In this document: one piece after another, positions 40,504 through 50,946 of the stretch
How the letters are laid out: each line of letters opens with the position of its first letter
How positions within the stretch are numbered: the first letter of the stretch is position 1
Assembly (NCBI GenBank): GCA_014762625.1
Contig: JABURQ010000048.1
Location: forward strand, 1 to 64,000
Length of the DNA stretch: 64,000 bases
From: Planctomycetaceae bacterium
Lineage (GTDB): Bacteria > Planctomycetota > Planctomycetia > Planctomycetales > Planctomycetaceae
Direction: 5' to 3'
Notes under the pieces: model-generated
Seen by the model: only the letters and a program-made list of their open reading frames with translations
Told to the model about the DNA's origin: nothing
The model's database searches: none
Position numbers and translations under genes: made by a program

Positions 40504-40704
40504 TGGTTCGGTTCCAATCAGGGATGACGAAAGGCGACAGACTTCCAGTATGGATGGAGGACCAAGTGATTCAAATTGAAATCTGATGAAGATTTCCCGA
40601 AGCTGGTGAATGTTATGAAGAGATAAATCGAGCGATTGCCGCTTGTCTTCAATCACAATCACGCGGTATCTTCTGGTGAACGTCCTTGTTTCCGGGAATT
40701 GAAA

Positions 40705-41571
40705 ATGCGCATCGTCTTGACTCTCTGTCTCCTGTGGACTCCCCTGACTCTCTTCGCCGCCGACGATTACACGCTCGGACCGGATTCAATGCCGCAGGAA
40801 GGAGTCCCTCGGGGAGAAGTGATTCAGGGAGAATTCGTCAGCCAAACCGTCTATCCGGGAACGGTCCGCGATTATTGGATTTACGTGCCGCAACAGTACG
40901 ACGCTTCCAAGCCGGCGTGTTTGATGGTTTTTCAGGATGGCGGCGGTTACGTGAATCCGAAAGGGCATTCGCGCGTTCCGGTGGTGTTCGATAACCTGAT
41001 TCACAAAAAAGAGATGCCGGTCACCATTGGTCTGTTTCTCAATCCGGGCGTCATTCCCCCCGCCATCGAAGGGGCCAAGCCGAGAAAAAATCGATCGTTT
41101 GAATACGACACCGTCTCCGACCAATACTCGAAGTTTCTGTTGGAGGAAGTCCTGCCGATGGTCGAAGCGAAGTACAACATTTCTCAAAACCCCGATCACC
41201 GAGCGACCTGCGGTATCAGTTCCGGAGGAATTTGTGCCTTCACCGTGGCCTGGGAACGTCCCGACCAATTCCACAAGGTTCTCAGTTACGTGGGAAGTTT
41301 TACCAACATCCGCGGCGGCCACATCTATCCCTCCCTGATTCGAAAAACCGATAAAAAGCCGTTGAAGGTTTTCCTGCAGGACGGGAAGAACGATCTCGAC
41401 AATCTCCACGGCAGTTGGCCGCTCGCCAATCAGCGCATGGCCTCGGCGTTGGAGTTTGCCGGCTATGACTACAAATTCGTCTTCGGAGATGGCGGGCACA
41501 ACGGGCGACACGGCGGGGCGATCCTGCCGGATGCGTTGCGATGGCTGTGGAGTGATGTGCCGGTGGAATAA
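40705..41571 (+). CDS. Secreted esterase (enterochelin-esterase-like fold)
   Basis: The 288-residue product has a signal peptide ([18 protein letters not shown]) and the D-type esterase pattern. It has [26 protein letters not shown] (oxyanion region), nucleophile Ser in [11 protein letters not shown], an Asp-containing FLQDGKND and His in GGHNGRHGG. The pattern is typical of exported esterases that cleave feruloyl or siderophore esters; the true substrate is unknown. The ATG at 40705 was chosen because it starts the signal peptide. It is divergent from the duplicated-domain gene. Confidence 0.85.
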
Positions 41572-45996: not shown

Positions 45997-47004
45997 ATGG
46001 CCGAGACTGTCCGTCGTCTGTTTGAACTCGAACCGGGTGACCAATCTGATTTCTTCGTCCTGCTGGTCGCTAAAGACAAAGGCACGACCCGCGACGGCAA
46101 GCCCTACTATCGTGTGACGTTGCGCGATCCCCAGCGAACCGTCACCGCCATGATCTGGAATGATGCCGGCTGGTTCGACGATTTTGACCAGACCTGGAGG
46201 CCGGGGCAGTTCTTCAAAATTCGCGGTCGGTATCTCGAAAACAAATACGGCTCGCAAATCGAGATCGAACAGATTCGACCGACGAAAGAGGAAGATTCCG
46301 CCGATGGCTTCGATCAAAGCGACTTTTTTGAAACGAGCCGTCGCGATCCGGGCCAGATGTTCGATGAACTGATCGAGATCGCTGCGGAGATTGAGGAAAC
46401 GCCGCTCCGCGAACTGGTCACATCGATACTGAAAGAGAATGAAGAGCCGTTACTGAAGTGGCCCGCGGCGTCCAAGAATCATCACGCCTTCAGCGGCGGG
46501 TTTCTGGAGCATGTCCTCTCGGTCACGCGAACGGCGATCTACCTCGCCGATAAGTACCAACAGGAATACCCGGCTCTCAAGCCTCCGCTGTCCAAAGACC
46601 TGATGATCGCCGGTGCGATCCTGCACGACATCGGCAAACTCCAGGAACTCTCCCACATGCCACCCGTCACCAACTACACCCCCTCCGGGAAACTGATCGG
46701 GCATATTCTGCTGGGACGCGACATGGTCCGCGACGCCGGAAAAGAAATTGAAAACCTGAATCCCGAAACGTTGCTGCGGTTGGAGCACATCATTGTCTCG
46801 CATCAGAACCTGCCGGAATGGGGATCGCCCATCGCACCGCACACTCCGGAAGCATTGCTGGTACATTACGCGGACGACATCGATGCCAAATTCCAGATGA
46901 TGGCGGGAGCGTTATCCGAAATGCCCAGCGACGACGATCCCTTCACCAGTCGCAGCAATCCGCTCCGCCGAACGATCTTCCGCGGGTTCGCCGAATCTGA
47001 CTAG
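45997..47004 (+). CDS. YhaM-like HD-domain 3'-5' exoribonuclease
   Basis: The 335-residue protein has an N-terminal OB-fold (YYRVTLRDPQRTVTAMIWND, FFKIRGRYLENKYGSQIEI) that binds nucleic acid. An HD domain follows (FLEHVLSVTRTAIYLADK, AGAILHDIGK, HHIIVSHQNL-type ISHQ). This two-part build is that of YhaM/CBF1 nucleases, which degrade RNA or DNA from the 3' end. Length and motifs are complete, though activity is inferred. The ATG at 45997 follows AGGAG. Its stop codon overlaps the stop of the convergent Tat gene by a few bases. Confidence 0.85.
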   Translation: MAETVRRLFELEPGDQSDFFVLLVAKDKGTTRDGKPYYRVTLRDPQRTVTAMIWNDAGWFDDFDQTWRPGQFFKIRGRYLENKYGSQIEIEQIRPTKEEDSADGFDQSDFFETSRRDPGQMFDELIEIAAEIEETPLRELVTSILKENEEPLLKWPAASKNHHAFSGGFLEHVLSVTRTAIYLADKYQQEYPALKPPLSKDLMIAGAILHDIGKLQELSHMPPVTNYTPSGKLIGHILLGRDMVRDAGKEIENLNPETLLRLEHIIVSHQNLPEWGSPIAPHTPEALLVHYADDIDAKFQMMAGALSEMPSDDDPFTSRSNPLRRTIFRGFAESD

Positions 47005-48332
47005 TTTGTTGAATCAAACAACACCCGCGGGTCGTACAACCCTTTTTCGGACGTCAGATCTTCGGTCAGAATGTCCCAGCTTTTGCCCCGCTCGCGCATG
47101 GCGGTGAAGTCGCGAGGTTCGTAGGCGATTTCCAGGTGCGGCGTCTCCAGCGCAACGTTCTCGTAATACGACGTGACGGCCGCTTCGGTGATGCCGGTGG
47201 TCAGAAGCGTCCGTTCGATGGGATACGGAGCCTGTTTTTGCCGGAAGTGGGTTTGAATGGCGTGCGCGAGGGCCTTGAAAAGATTGCGGTTGTTCCACGG
47301 ACCGGGGTAGAAGTAGGTCGCTTTCGGAGCGGGATCGTTCTTTTCCCGCCAGGCGAAATCCCAACGGATACTCGACGCCCCGATCCTGAGGATCGTGGCT
47401 TTCAGGCCGTCTTTGTATTCAAGAAAGATGCCGTGCGTCGGATGTGTTCCCTCGCCGGGGATCGTTCCGAACGTTTCGGGAACTTCCCCGAGTTCGGCTT
47501 TGATGGCGGATTCGTACAAATCCCAGGAGAAGCGCCCCGCCTTCCCGGCGTTGAGGAGTTCTTCATCTTTCAGGACTTCGAGTTTTGAGATTCCGGTTTC
47601 GCCTCCTTTGCGGAATTCAATCATCGATTGCAGCACTTCGGCCCCGTGGAAGTCGTAGCGTTCGATGGGACCGCCGTGAATCGAGATCGCCTCCACCAGT
47701 TCCGTCCCCGGTTTGATGGTGATGTCCGGTTTGCGTTGAGCGAGGGGGACCGAACTTCCCGCCATAAACGGTAGACCGATCTCCTGAGCAGTGTCGTACA
47801 TCTCCCGCGCCCAGTCCCAACGGTACGAAAAGTGTTTGTCGTTAAAGTAGGGAACGACGCGGCCCGATTCCTTCATGATACCGACGCATTCGTCAAACCA
47901 TTCCTTGCGGGGGTATTTATCGATGCCGTACTTCGTGTCGGGATAATCGCCGTGTTCGCCAATGCACAACACAGCATCCACATCGAGCGTCTTGCCTCCC
48001 TGGCAGAGTGCTCCGCGAATGGTGTCGTAGATCGGGATCTCGTATTCTTTGGCGACGTCGCGAGACATATCGCGTCCCTCGGGAAATTGATCGACGTACA
48101 TCGATACAATCTCGACGCCCGGATCGACCAGTTCGCCGTTGAACAGAACCGGATTCAAAAAGCTTTCGAGCAGGACGTGCGCGTGCGACCGGTCAACCAT
48201 CCAGGTCAACACAACCGCCACCCGCGGTCGTTCAGTCGTCGTACAGGAATCGGCGAACAACAGATGCGGTGAGATCATACCGGCGGCCAGAGAGGTTTTC
48301 AGAAAATCGCGGCGGCTGGGAGAACAGTGCAT
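47001..48332 (-). CDS. Tat-exported protein of unknown function
   Basis: The 443-residue product has a twin-arginine signal (SPSRRDFLKTSLAAGMI). The mature part looks like an alpha/beta protein with PRVAVVLTWMVDRSHA and VDAVLCIGEHGDYP. It could be a Rossmann-like domain, but no cofactor or catalytic motif is firmly identified. Similar proteins occur widely in planctomycetes. It is convergent with the HD nuclease gene and their stop codons overlap (TAG against TAG). Confidence 0.75.
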   Translation of the reverse strand: MHCSPSRRDFLKTSLAAGMISPHLLFADSCTTTERPRVAVVLTWMVDRSHAHVLLESFLNPVLFNGELVDPGVEIVSMYVDQFPEGRDMSRDVAKEYEIPIYDTIRGALCQGGKTLDVDAVLCIGEHGDYPDTKYGIDKYPRKEWFDECVGIMKESGRVVPYFNDKHFSYRWDWAREMYDTAQEIGLPFMAGSSVPLAQRKPDITIKPGTELVEAISIHGGPIERYDFHGAEVLQSMIEFRKGGETGISKLEVLKDEELLNAGKAGRFSWDLYESAIKAELGEVPETFGTIPGEGTHPTHGIFLEYKDGLKATILRIGASSIRWDFAWREKNDPAPKATYFYPGPWNNRNLFKALAHAIQTHFRQKQAPYPIERTLLTTGITEAAVTSYYENVALETPHLEIAYEPRDFTAMRERGKSWDILTEDLTSEKGLYDPRVLFDSTN

Positions 48333-48342
48333 AAGCTAACTT

Positions 48343-49725
48343 TCAGTCTTCAGTATCGATGCCGAGCGATTCGAGACGACGATACAACTTGGGACGGGGA
48401 ATCCCCAACAGTTCGGCGGCTTTCGTTTTATTAAAACGACTTTGTTCGAGCGCTGCCAGAATATGTTCCCGTTCGACCCGTTCGAGGTACGATTCCAGAT
48501 CGGTGAACGATTCCACGGGGGCGGGATTTTCCCGCTGCGCATCGTAACCCGAGCGAAACCGGAACGGCAGATCGCTTTCCGTGATCAGGAGACCTGTCGC
48601 CGACTGATGGGCGGACTGCACGACGGCGGTCAGTTCCGCGATGTTTTCGGGCCACTGGTAGCGCTGGAAAAGTTCGAGGACGTCATCTTCAAAACCTTCC
48701 CGTTGCCATTCTTCCCCCCGATTCAGAGTTTCCAGAATTTCCTGCGCCAACAACGGCAGATCTTCCAGCCGTTCCCGCAAGGGAGGCAATTTGAGGATGA
48801 TGGTACTCAACAGGAGCAGATATTCGCGAATCAACTCATCCCCCTCGACGAGTTCCGCCGGGGAGTTGACGGACGAGGCAATCACGCGAATTCGCCGGTC
48901 AGCCGGGTATTCCTGTTGCCGATCGAGCAGATCGATCAACTCCTGCTGGAGGTCGCGGGGGAACCGATCGGCTTCGATCAGAAACAGAGTTCCCGGTTGC
49001 AGGCTCGAAAACGCTTCGTCCGGCTTCGCCATTTCCAGCATCCGCTGCCACGTTCGCTTGAGTTCGATGGCGGCCGAACTGCGACAGTCGAGCGGAACAA
49101 ACGCCCGGGATTGAAATTCGCTGCCGTAGTGAATGGTGCGGGCGAGGTGTTCGCGTCCGGTGCCGGGTTCTCCCTGAATCTAGAGGTGGGCATCGGAATT
49201 CATCGCGAGCTGCGTTTGGGCAATCACCCGCTGCATCGCGCGGGATCGTCCCACCAGCGACGATTGACGATATCGCTGGCGGATCGACTGACGCGCCGAC
49301 GCGAGTTCCGCGTGCCATTTTTGTGCCACCGTCGGCTGAGGCGGTTTGCGGGGCTGTTCGAGGGGCGAGAGCACGACGAGCACGCCTTCGACTTCATCCT
49401 GTTCGTTCTTGAGCGGAAAACATTCCTGAACGCAGGCAATCACGCGTCCCGATTTGTGAGTCAGATACGCCGCCACGGTATTGCCCTGCCCCTCGAAGAC
49501 GGATGGTGGCGGACAAAGCTCCCCCCGAAAGCGATCGGCTCCCTCGTCTTCGGTGTGATAATCGCACACCTTGCCGAGAACGTCTCCCGCCATCCAACCC
49601 GTGAGTTGATGACAGCCGGTGTTATAAAAGCGAATGCGGCGACGAGAATCGAGAAAATAAATCGGCGTGACGACGGAGTTCAACCACGCATCAAGAGTTG
49701 TTTTGCGTCGTCTGGGTGGATTCAT
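48343..49725 (-). pseudogene. NtrC-like PAS-AAA+-Fis regulator, broken by an amber codon and with a degenerate ATPase
   Basis: One frame runs 460 codons but holds a TAG at 49180-49182. Upstream is a PAS-like sensor part (RRIRFYNTGCHQLTG). After the stop comes a Walker A written GEPGTGRE (Lys replaced by Arg). The Walker B region reads GTLFLIEADR, with Ile at the usual Asp. The GAFTGA loop that contacts sigma-54 is missing. A Fis-type helix-turn-helix ends the protein (FNKTKAAELLGIPRPKLYRRL). A downstream ATG at 49041 could give a 232-residue fragment. It is most likely a decayed enhancer-binding protein, or a read-through gene. Codons around TAG read CTC-TAG-ATT, where TTG (Leu) would restore the frame. 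Confidence 0.8.
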
Positions 49726-49758: not shown

Positions 49759-50904
49759 TTACCATTCAGGATCGAATTGTTCGTCACTGAGGATCTTCAG
49801 GTAACTATCATAACGCTGATGGGAGACGAGTTCCGCAATAACCGCCTGTTTCACGCCACATTTCTCTTCGTGAGTATGCGAGCAATCGGGGAACTGGCAC
49901 AAGGGCACGAACGGACGAAACTCCACGAAGAAGCCTTCCACTTCCTCCTGGACCACGTCCCAGAGCGCCATCTGGCGGATTCCCGGCGTATCGACAACGG
50001 CCCCTCCCATAGCGAGCGGATACATCACCGCGCGACGCGTCGTATGGCGTCCTTTGCTGCTCCATTCACTGATGTGACTCGTCTCCAGATTCAAGTCGGG
50101 TTGTACGCGATTGATGAGCGTCGATTTCCCGACGCCGCTTTGACCGGCCAACACGGTCTGCTTGTCTTTCAAAATCCGTCGCAAAACGTCGAGCCCCCAG
50201 CCCTTCGCCCCGCTGCATTGCAGGACGCGATAGCCGAGCTGAGCGTACAGGCCGACGATCGGTTGTAAATCGGAAGGATCGACGAGATCGGCTTTGTTGA
50301 TGCAGACGATCGGCGTCACGTCCCCTTTGCCGGCGCTCACCAGAAACCGGTCGATGAGATTCGGCTTCAGCGGAGGCTCGTCGGCGGAAACCACGATCAA
50401 CGCCTGATCGACGTTGGCGACGATCAAATGCTCTCGTCCGCCCGATTGTCGCGACAGCGTCCCGTACCGAGGTTCGACACGTTCGACAACCGCCTGTTCC
50501 TCGTTGATCGGCTGGATGAGGACGTGATCTCCGGTCACGACGGCGTTACGATTCTCGCGCGAAACCGTGCGAACCACCTGCCGCACCGTGCATTCGTAAT
50601 CCCGCCCCGATTCCGTCCGGGCCAAAGAATTCAAACCTGCGGTCGAAAGAATGCGCGCCGGTTCACAAACCGACTCATCGACGACCCGTTGCAAATCGTT
50701 CTCATCCTCTCCGCCGACTGATTTGACCGTGCGATAGCGAGAGAGAGCGCCTTTGCCGGAGACACGTTCCTCCGAGGCAAGGTCTTCAATGTTTTCGGAG
50801 GCGAGCTGTTCTTCCGAGATGCGATTTTGACGAGAGCGACTGCCGCGGTTTTTGCGGAACTGGACGCGAACTTTGTTCGCTTTGTTCTTTTTCTTCTTAC
50901 CCAC
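49759..50904 (-). CDS. rsgA: Ribosome small-subunit GTPase RsgA
   Basis: The 381-residue protein is a circularly permuted GTPase: the G4 motif NKADL precedes G1 (GQSGVGKST) and G3 (DTPGIRQMAL). A C-terminal zinc segment has CQFPDCSHTHEEKC. RsgA checks 30S maturation. The start is a GTG at 50904 backed by GGAGGAA upstream; an in-frame ATG at 50946 is worse placed. The N-terminal stretch is unusually long and basic (GKKKKNKANKVRVQFRKN). It is 42 bases downstream of an FHA gene on the same strand. Confidence 0.93.
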   Translation of the reverse strand: MGKKKKNKANKVRVQFRKNRGSRSRQNRISEEQLASENIEDLASEERVSGKGALSRYRTVKSVGGEDENDLQRVVDESVCEPARILSTAGLNSLARTESGRDYECTVRQVVRTVSRENRNAVVTGDHVLIQPINEEQAVVERVEPRYGTLSRQSGGREHLIVANVDQALIVVSADEPPLKPNLIDRFLVSAGKGDVTPIVCINKADLVDPSDLQPIVGLYAQLGYRVLQCSGAKGWGLDVLRRILKDKQTVLAGQSGVGKSTLINRVQPDLNLETSHISEWSSKGRHTTRRAVMYPLAMGGAVVDTPGIRQMALWDVVQEEVEGFFVEFRPFVPLCQFPDCSHTHEEKCGVKQAVIAELVSHQRYDSYLKILSDEQFDPEW

Positions 50905-50946
50905 GTGACTCTCGATTCCTCCCTGTGCCGAACAACAGCGCGACAC

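Follow-up and report, generated by a model that had tools for sequence, protein, structure and literature searches.

The interrupted regulator gene at 48343-49725 of the window (the whole 64,000-nucleotide stretch of DNA analysed here) is best explained as one copy of an old family of pseudo-ATPase regulators, in which a one-base stop has either arisen very recently or entered as an assembly or population variant, an explanation that we regard as probable and hold with good, though not full, confidence. The stop codon itself is ordinary, and it is the family-wide degeneration of the ATPase that we consider the more interesting part: the homologues form a natural series in which an AAA+ activator keeps its fold and its DNA-binding domain and loses its motor, so that one can test whether an NtrC-type protein is able to act as a pure ligand-switched regulator.

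Read on the minus strand from 49725 to 48343, the locus is one 460-codon frame running from ATG to TGA and split, as an earlier note on this DNA had stated with correct coordinates and no mention of the strand, by a single internal TAG (Table 1). Pfam searches with the read-through frame returned Sigma54_activat (PF00158, E=1.4e-15, 57.8 bits against a cut-off of 20.2), AAA_lid_14 (E=1.3e-15) and HTH_8 (E=3.8e-14), together with a weak PAS match; on these Pfam matches, the combination of a Sigma54_activat-type AAA+ domain, a lid and a Fis HTH gives the protein the domain build of the NtrC family. Because both same-genus genomes carry a stop-free 460-codon frame with 79% identity to the window gene, the regulator is a genuine gene rather than an ORF that arose by chance.

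Table 1. Features of the interrupted regulator gene and its immediate neighbours, in window coordinates.
Feature	Coordinates	Strand	Remarks
Downstream gene	47001..48332	-	10 nt downstream of the regulator; twin-arginine-like signal; without a Pfam match
Interrupted gene, PAS - NtrC-type AAA+ (degenerate) - Fis HTH	48343..49725	-	460 codons including the TAG, then terminal TGA
Longest downstream restart ORF	48343..49041	-	ATG at 49041, 232 aa; begins past Walker A; no Shine-Dalgarno
Fis-type HTH_8	48370..48486	-	residues 414-452; one of the best conserved regions
Degenerate Walker B GTLFLIEA	48970..48993	-	residues 245-252; Ile-Glu in the window copy
Degenerate Walker A GEPGTGRE	49150..49173	-	residues 185-192; Lys to Arg, likewise in both sister species
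In-frame TAG, codon 182	49180..49182	-	in the beta strand immediately preceding Walker A; both same-genus genomes have TGG (Trp)
PAS-like sensor domain	49363..49690	-	residues ~12-121; PF08448/PF00989, just below the curated cut-off
rsgA	49759..50946	-	33 nt upstream of the regulator

The motif changes that had been described for the ATPase, namely the altered Walker A and Walker B sequences and the missing GAFTGA, are all present in the window copy, which has neither the Walker A Lys nor the Walker B Asp-Glu pair required for ATP hydrolysis and reads IREYLLLL in place of the arginine-finger block FR-DLYYR, a block that is not conserved in the family. To place these changes, we sampled 150 genomes from the same taxonomic family and accepted matches better than E=1e-45; 129 of the 150 contain a homologue, nearly all spanning the full protein, while the other 21 have paralogue-level matches only, and other families of the class have nearly full-length homologues as well, with 30-35% identity. 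When 75 homologues were aligned with the window copy, the glycines of Walker A (GxxGxG) proved invariant, the basic residue was Lys in 47/75 and Arg in 28/75, and the Walker B Asp was kept in only seven of the homologues and gone in the other 68. With the two catalytic columns left out, a FastTree tree requires at least 15 changes between Lys and Arg and at least four in the presence of the Walker B Asp. Neither the window copy nor any homologue examined has GAFTGA in its AAA domain; the sole matches to the pattern (L025 and L174, which are one genome) are located in the PAS region. The lid and HTH are better conserved than the AAA core. The genome of the window encodes one sigma-54 (RpoN), and most of its NtrC-type paralogues that were examined retain GAFTGA and an LDE Walker B, and several have an intact arginine-finger block (FREDLYYR / FR-DLY-R).

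Degeneration of the ATPase is thus, from these comparisons, an ancient, group-wide and selected state that is separate from the stop in the window copy. Since the domain fold, the invariant GxxGxG and the HTH persist, the family seems to consist of pseudo-ATPase regulators under selection and not of decay products, and since the lesions are family-wide while the NtrC paralogues keep their motifs, they are not a step in the decay of the window copy. The earlier note's ordering of events holds, in that the ATPase lesions are older than the stop: the Walker A Arg is common to both sister species, and the stop is confined to this genome. Its proposed check, whether the Walker changes are shared, also comes out positive, for the Walker A Arg in the sisters and group-wide among the 75 homologues. 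Its reading of these changes as a sign of decay in this copy is not supported, as they are common to the whole group, whose proteins have been subject to purifying selection. Within the limited body of papers searched, we found no description of this regulator family.

Turning to the stop, codon 182 is TGG in both sister species, one transition away from TAG, and not the Leu or Gln codon that had been anticipated in orthologues; across the wider family, the residues in this column are His, Leu, Cys, Thr, Ala and Trp, and no other homologue among the matches listed contains a TAG. Compared with sister S1, dN/dS for the window copy is ~0.05 before the stop and ~0.09 after it, with dS saturated against the window, and it is 0.03-0.05 between the two sisters; the overall range of ~0.03-0.11 indicates purifying selection, and because dS is saturated against the window, these values speak only to long-standing constraint on the gene. 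Such saturation would hide recent events, and continued production of the full-length protein would likewise leave constraint downstream of the TAG. In relative-rate counts, the window branch has no consistent surplus of changes either before or after the stop; every residue that at least 93% of the family conserves is intact in the window copy, and no frameshift or second lesion was seen in it. The further suggestion that the protein "then decayed" is at odds with all three of these observations. With no acceleration of the branch and no conserved residue broken, the stop must be very young or not real: it is private to this genome, isolated and very recent, or else it is a sequencing, assembly or population variant. 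Elsewhere in the family, a second member in another genome (L154, G093, ~5230-5180) has two in-frame TGA codons in its PAS region; we considered it as a parallel case and rejected it, as the stops are confined to a badly aligned, apparently frame-shifted PAS stretch and are unrelated.

ALTERNATIVES for the stop that we weighed were a base-call, assembly or population artefact, reassignment or suppression of the codon, and a split gene. The strongest of these, although we still judge it unlikely at roughly one chance in a handful, is that the TAG reflects a sequencing error, a misassembly or a mixture of strains and that the organism carries an intact gene: the lesion is a lone transition within an otherwise undamaged and constrained gene, and the assembly is a draft of 208 contigs. 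Against this, we screened two domain families across the genome, sulfatase and SBP_bac_10, and found no in-frame stop in any of their 195 matches (128 and 67, respectively), and among the window genes comparable with sister contigs, none but the regulator is interrupted; the assembly is therefore not error-rich.

Read-through or suppression of the TAG, with the full-length protein still produced, is very improbable. The frame 3' of the TAG is fully conserved, as this reading would predict, but no tRNA with a CUA anticodon appears among the 55 tRNA matches (found with a covariance model, then typed in ARAGORN), TAG has not been lost as a terminator, with four conserved window genes ending in TAG at their conserved ends, and other homologues among the matches listed do not contain the codon. 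Read-through by reassignment, which had been raised as an alternative, accordingly finds neither a suppressor tRNA nor an unusual use of TAG in this genome. One tRNA of unclear anticodon (L211 385-457) was considered as a suppressor and rejected, since its loop reads CTTCAA and contains no CTA. It lies in L211 100-457 on contig C18, is low-scoring with an irregular anticodon loop, and adjoins a tRNA-Leu that also scores low and a second tRNA-Lys(ctt), a group that is possibly a mobile-element tRNA cluster.

Least probable of all is a gene split that yields two working proteins, one a PAS fragment and the other an AAA-HTH protein made from a restart. A 232-codon ORF does follow the TAG, but its ATG is the first start, 46 codons past the stop and beyond Walker A, the sequence upstream of it (AACGTGGCAGCGG) has no Shine-Dalgarno, both of which make use of this restart unlikely, and no relative among the matches listed has the split form.

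Returning to a very recent stop or a variant in a pseudo-ATPase regulator, we asked what the intact protein resembles. For the intact sister protein, the AlphaFold model has a mean pLDDT of 68, poor in the PAS part and good in most of the AAA, lid and HTH parts (mostly 75-92 in AAA and HTH), and it matches structures of the sigma-54 activators ZraR, NtrX and FleQ, as well as VpsR, the last with a Foldseek E-value of 3.2e-16 and thus a bEBP fold without the loop 1 GAFTGA. Known bEBPs without GAFTGA, namely R. capsulatus NtrC, VpsR and Caulobacter NtrC, are reported to regulate sigma-70 promoters without ATP hydrolysis (PMC10274813), and by analogy we propose that the window family may do the same. 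VpsR of Vibrio cholerae (PDB 7v2b), an NtrC-type AAA+ protein without GAFTGA that reportedly acts on sigma-70 promoters (PMC10274813), is similar in both sequence and fold; it differs in having a receiver-like N-terminus and binding c-di-GMP, whereas the N-terminus of the window family is PAS-like. The NtrC proteins of Rhodobacter capsulatus and Caulobacter share the deletion of the loop 1 GAFTGA, and sigma-70 regulation is reported for them (PMC10274813). Unlike the window family, which has a PAS and for which no partner was seen, they have a receiver domain and an NtrB partner, and the window family has additionally lost the Walker B and arginine-finger block. Among better-known architectures, the TyrR model matches the window protein weakly and in part (66 bits against a cut-off of 576). 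TyrR of E. coli combines PAS, AAA+ and HTH domains and acts with sigma-70, and also has an ACT domain. Of the family models and solved structures, those of the sigma-54 activators DhaR, ZraR and AtoC are among the ones that score best, although their scores fall far below the cut-offs (for the DhaR model, 145 bits against an equivalog cut-off of 551). These activators keep GAFTGA, Walker B and the arginine fingers.

Members of this widespread Planctomycetota family have an NtrC-like build of PAS, AAA+ and Fis HTH, in which the AAA+ domain no longer has the residues needed to hydrolyse ATP and to contact sigma-54. That domain has kept its fold, probably still binds a ligand or nucleotide, and most likely serves as an oligomerisation or ligand switch; the PAS most likely senses a small molecule or redox state, and DNA binding, by analogy with bEBPs lacking GAFTGA, would control sigma-70-type promoters. 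In the window genome, the change from TGG to TAG would end translation after the PAS and leave a fragment of 181 residues, and because this fragment has no DNA-binding domain, the window copy is probably non-functional. More speculatively, and with somewhat less than even confidence, we suggest a class-wide planctomycete pseudo-ATPase family in which a nucleotide-binding, non-hydrolysing AAA+ domain is a ligand switch for sigma-70 promoters, partly governing sugar-acid (2-keto-3-deoxygluconate-type) catabolism, and in which the Walker A Lys and Arg are freely exchanged.

The sugar-acid element of this suggestion comes from gene neighbourhoods. In 12 homologous loci from 8 genera (L119, L120, L121, L122, L126, L132, L136, L142, L168, L172, L177 and L178), a PfkB-family kinase lies 8-190 nt upstream of the regulator on the same strand; from its sequence, we take it to resemble 2-keto-3-deoxygluconate kinase, Pfam giving PfkB only. 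In the window, no PfkB kinase is adjacent to the regulator. A homologue of the window's downstream gene is found on the same strand, less than 2 kb downstream of the regulator, in four further loci of other genera (L132, L136, L168 and L169), and in each it is followed by an esterase. Together, the upstream kinase and the downstream gene and esterase hint that the regulator perhaps has a role in sugar-acid metabolism or catabolism, and the kinase offers a concrete first candidate target. Both same-genus genomes have the gene order of the window, with rsgA upstream and the twin-arginine-like protein downstream. We rejected the rsgA neighbourhood as a family trait, because same-strand adjacency is limited to the genus; one other locus has rsgA adjacent on the opposite strand. 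The window's own homologue of the esterase, at 40636-41571, is ~7 kb away from the regulator.
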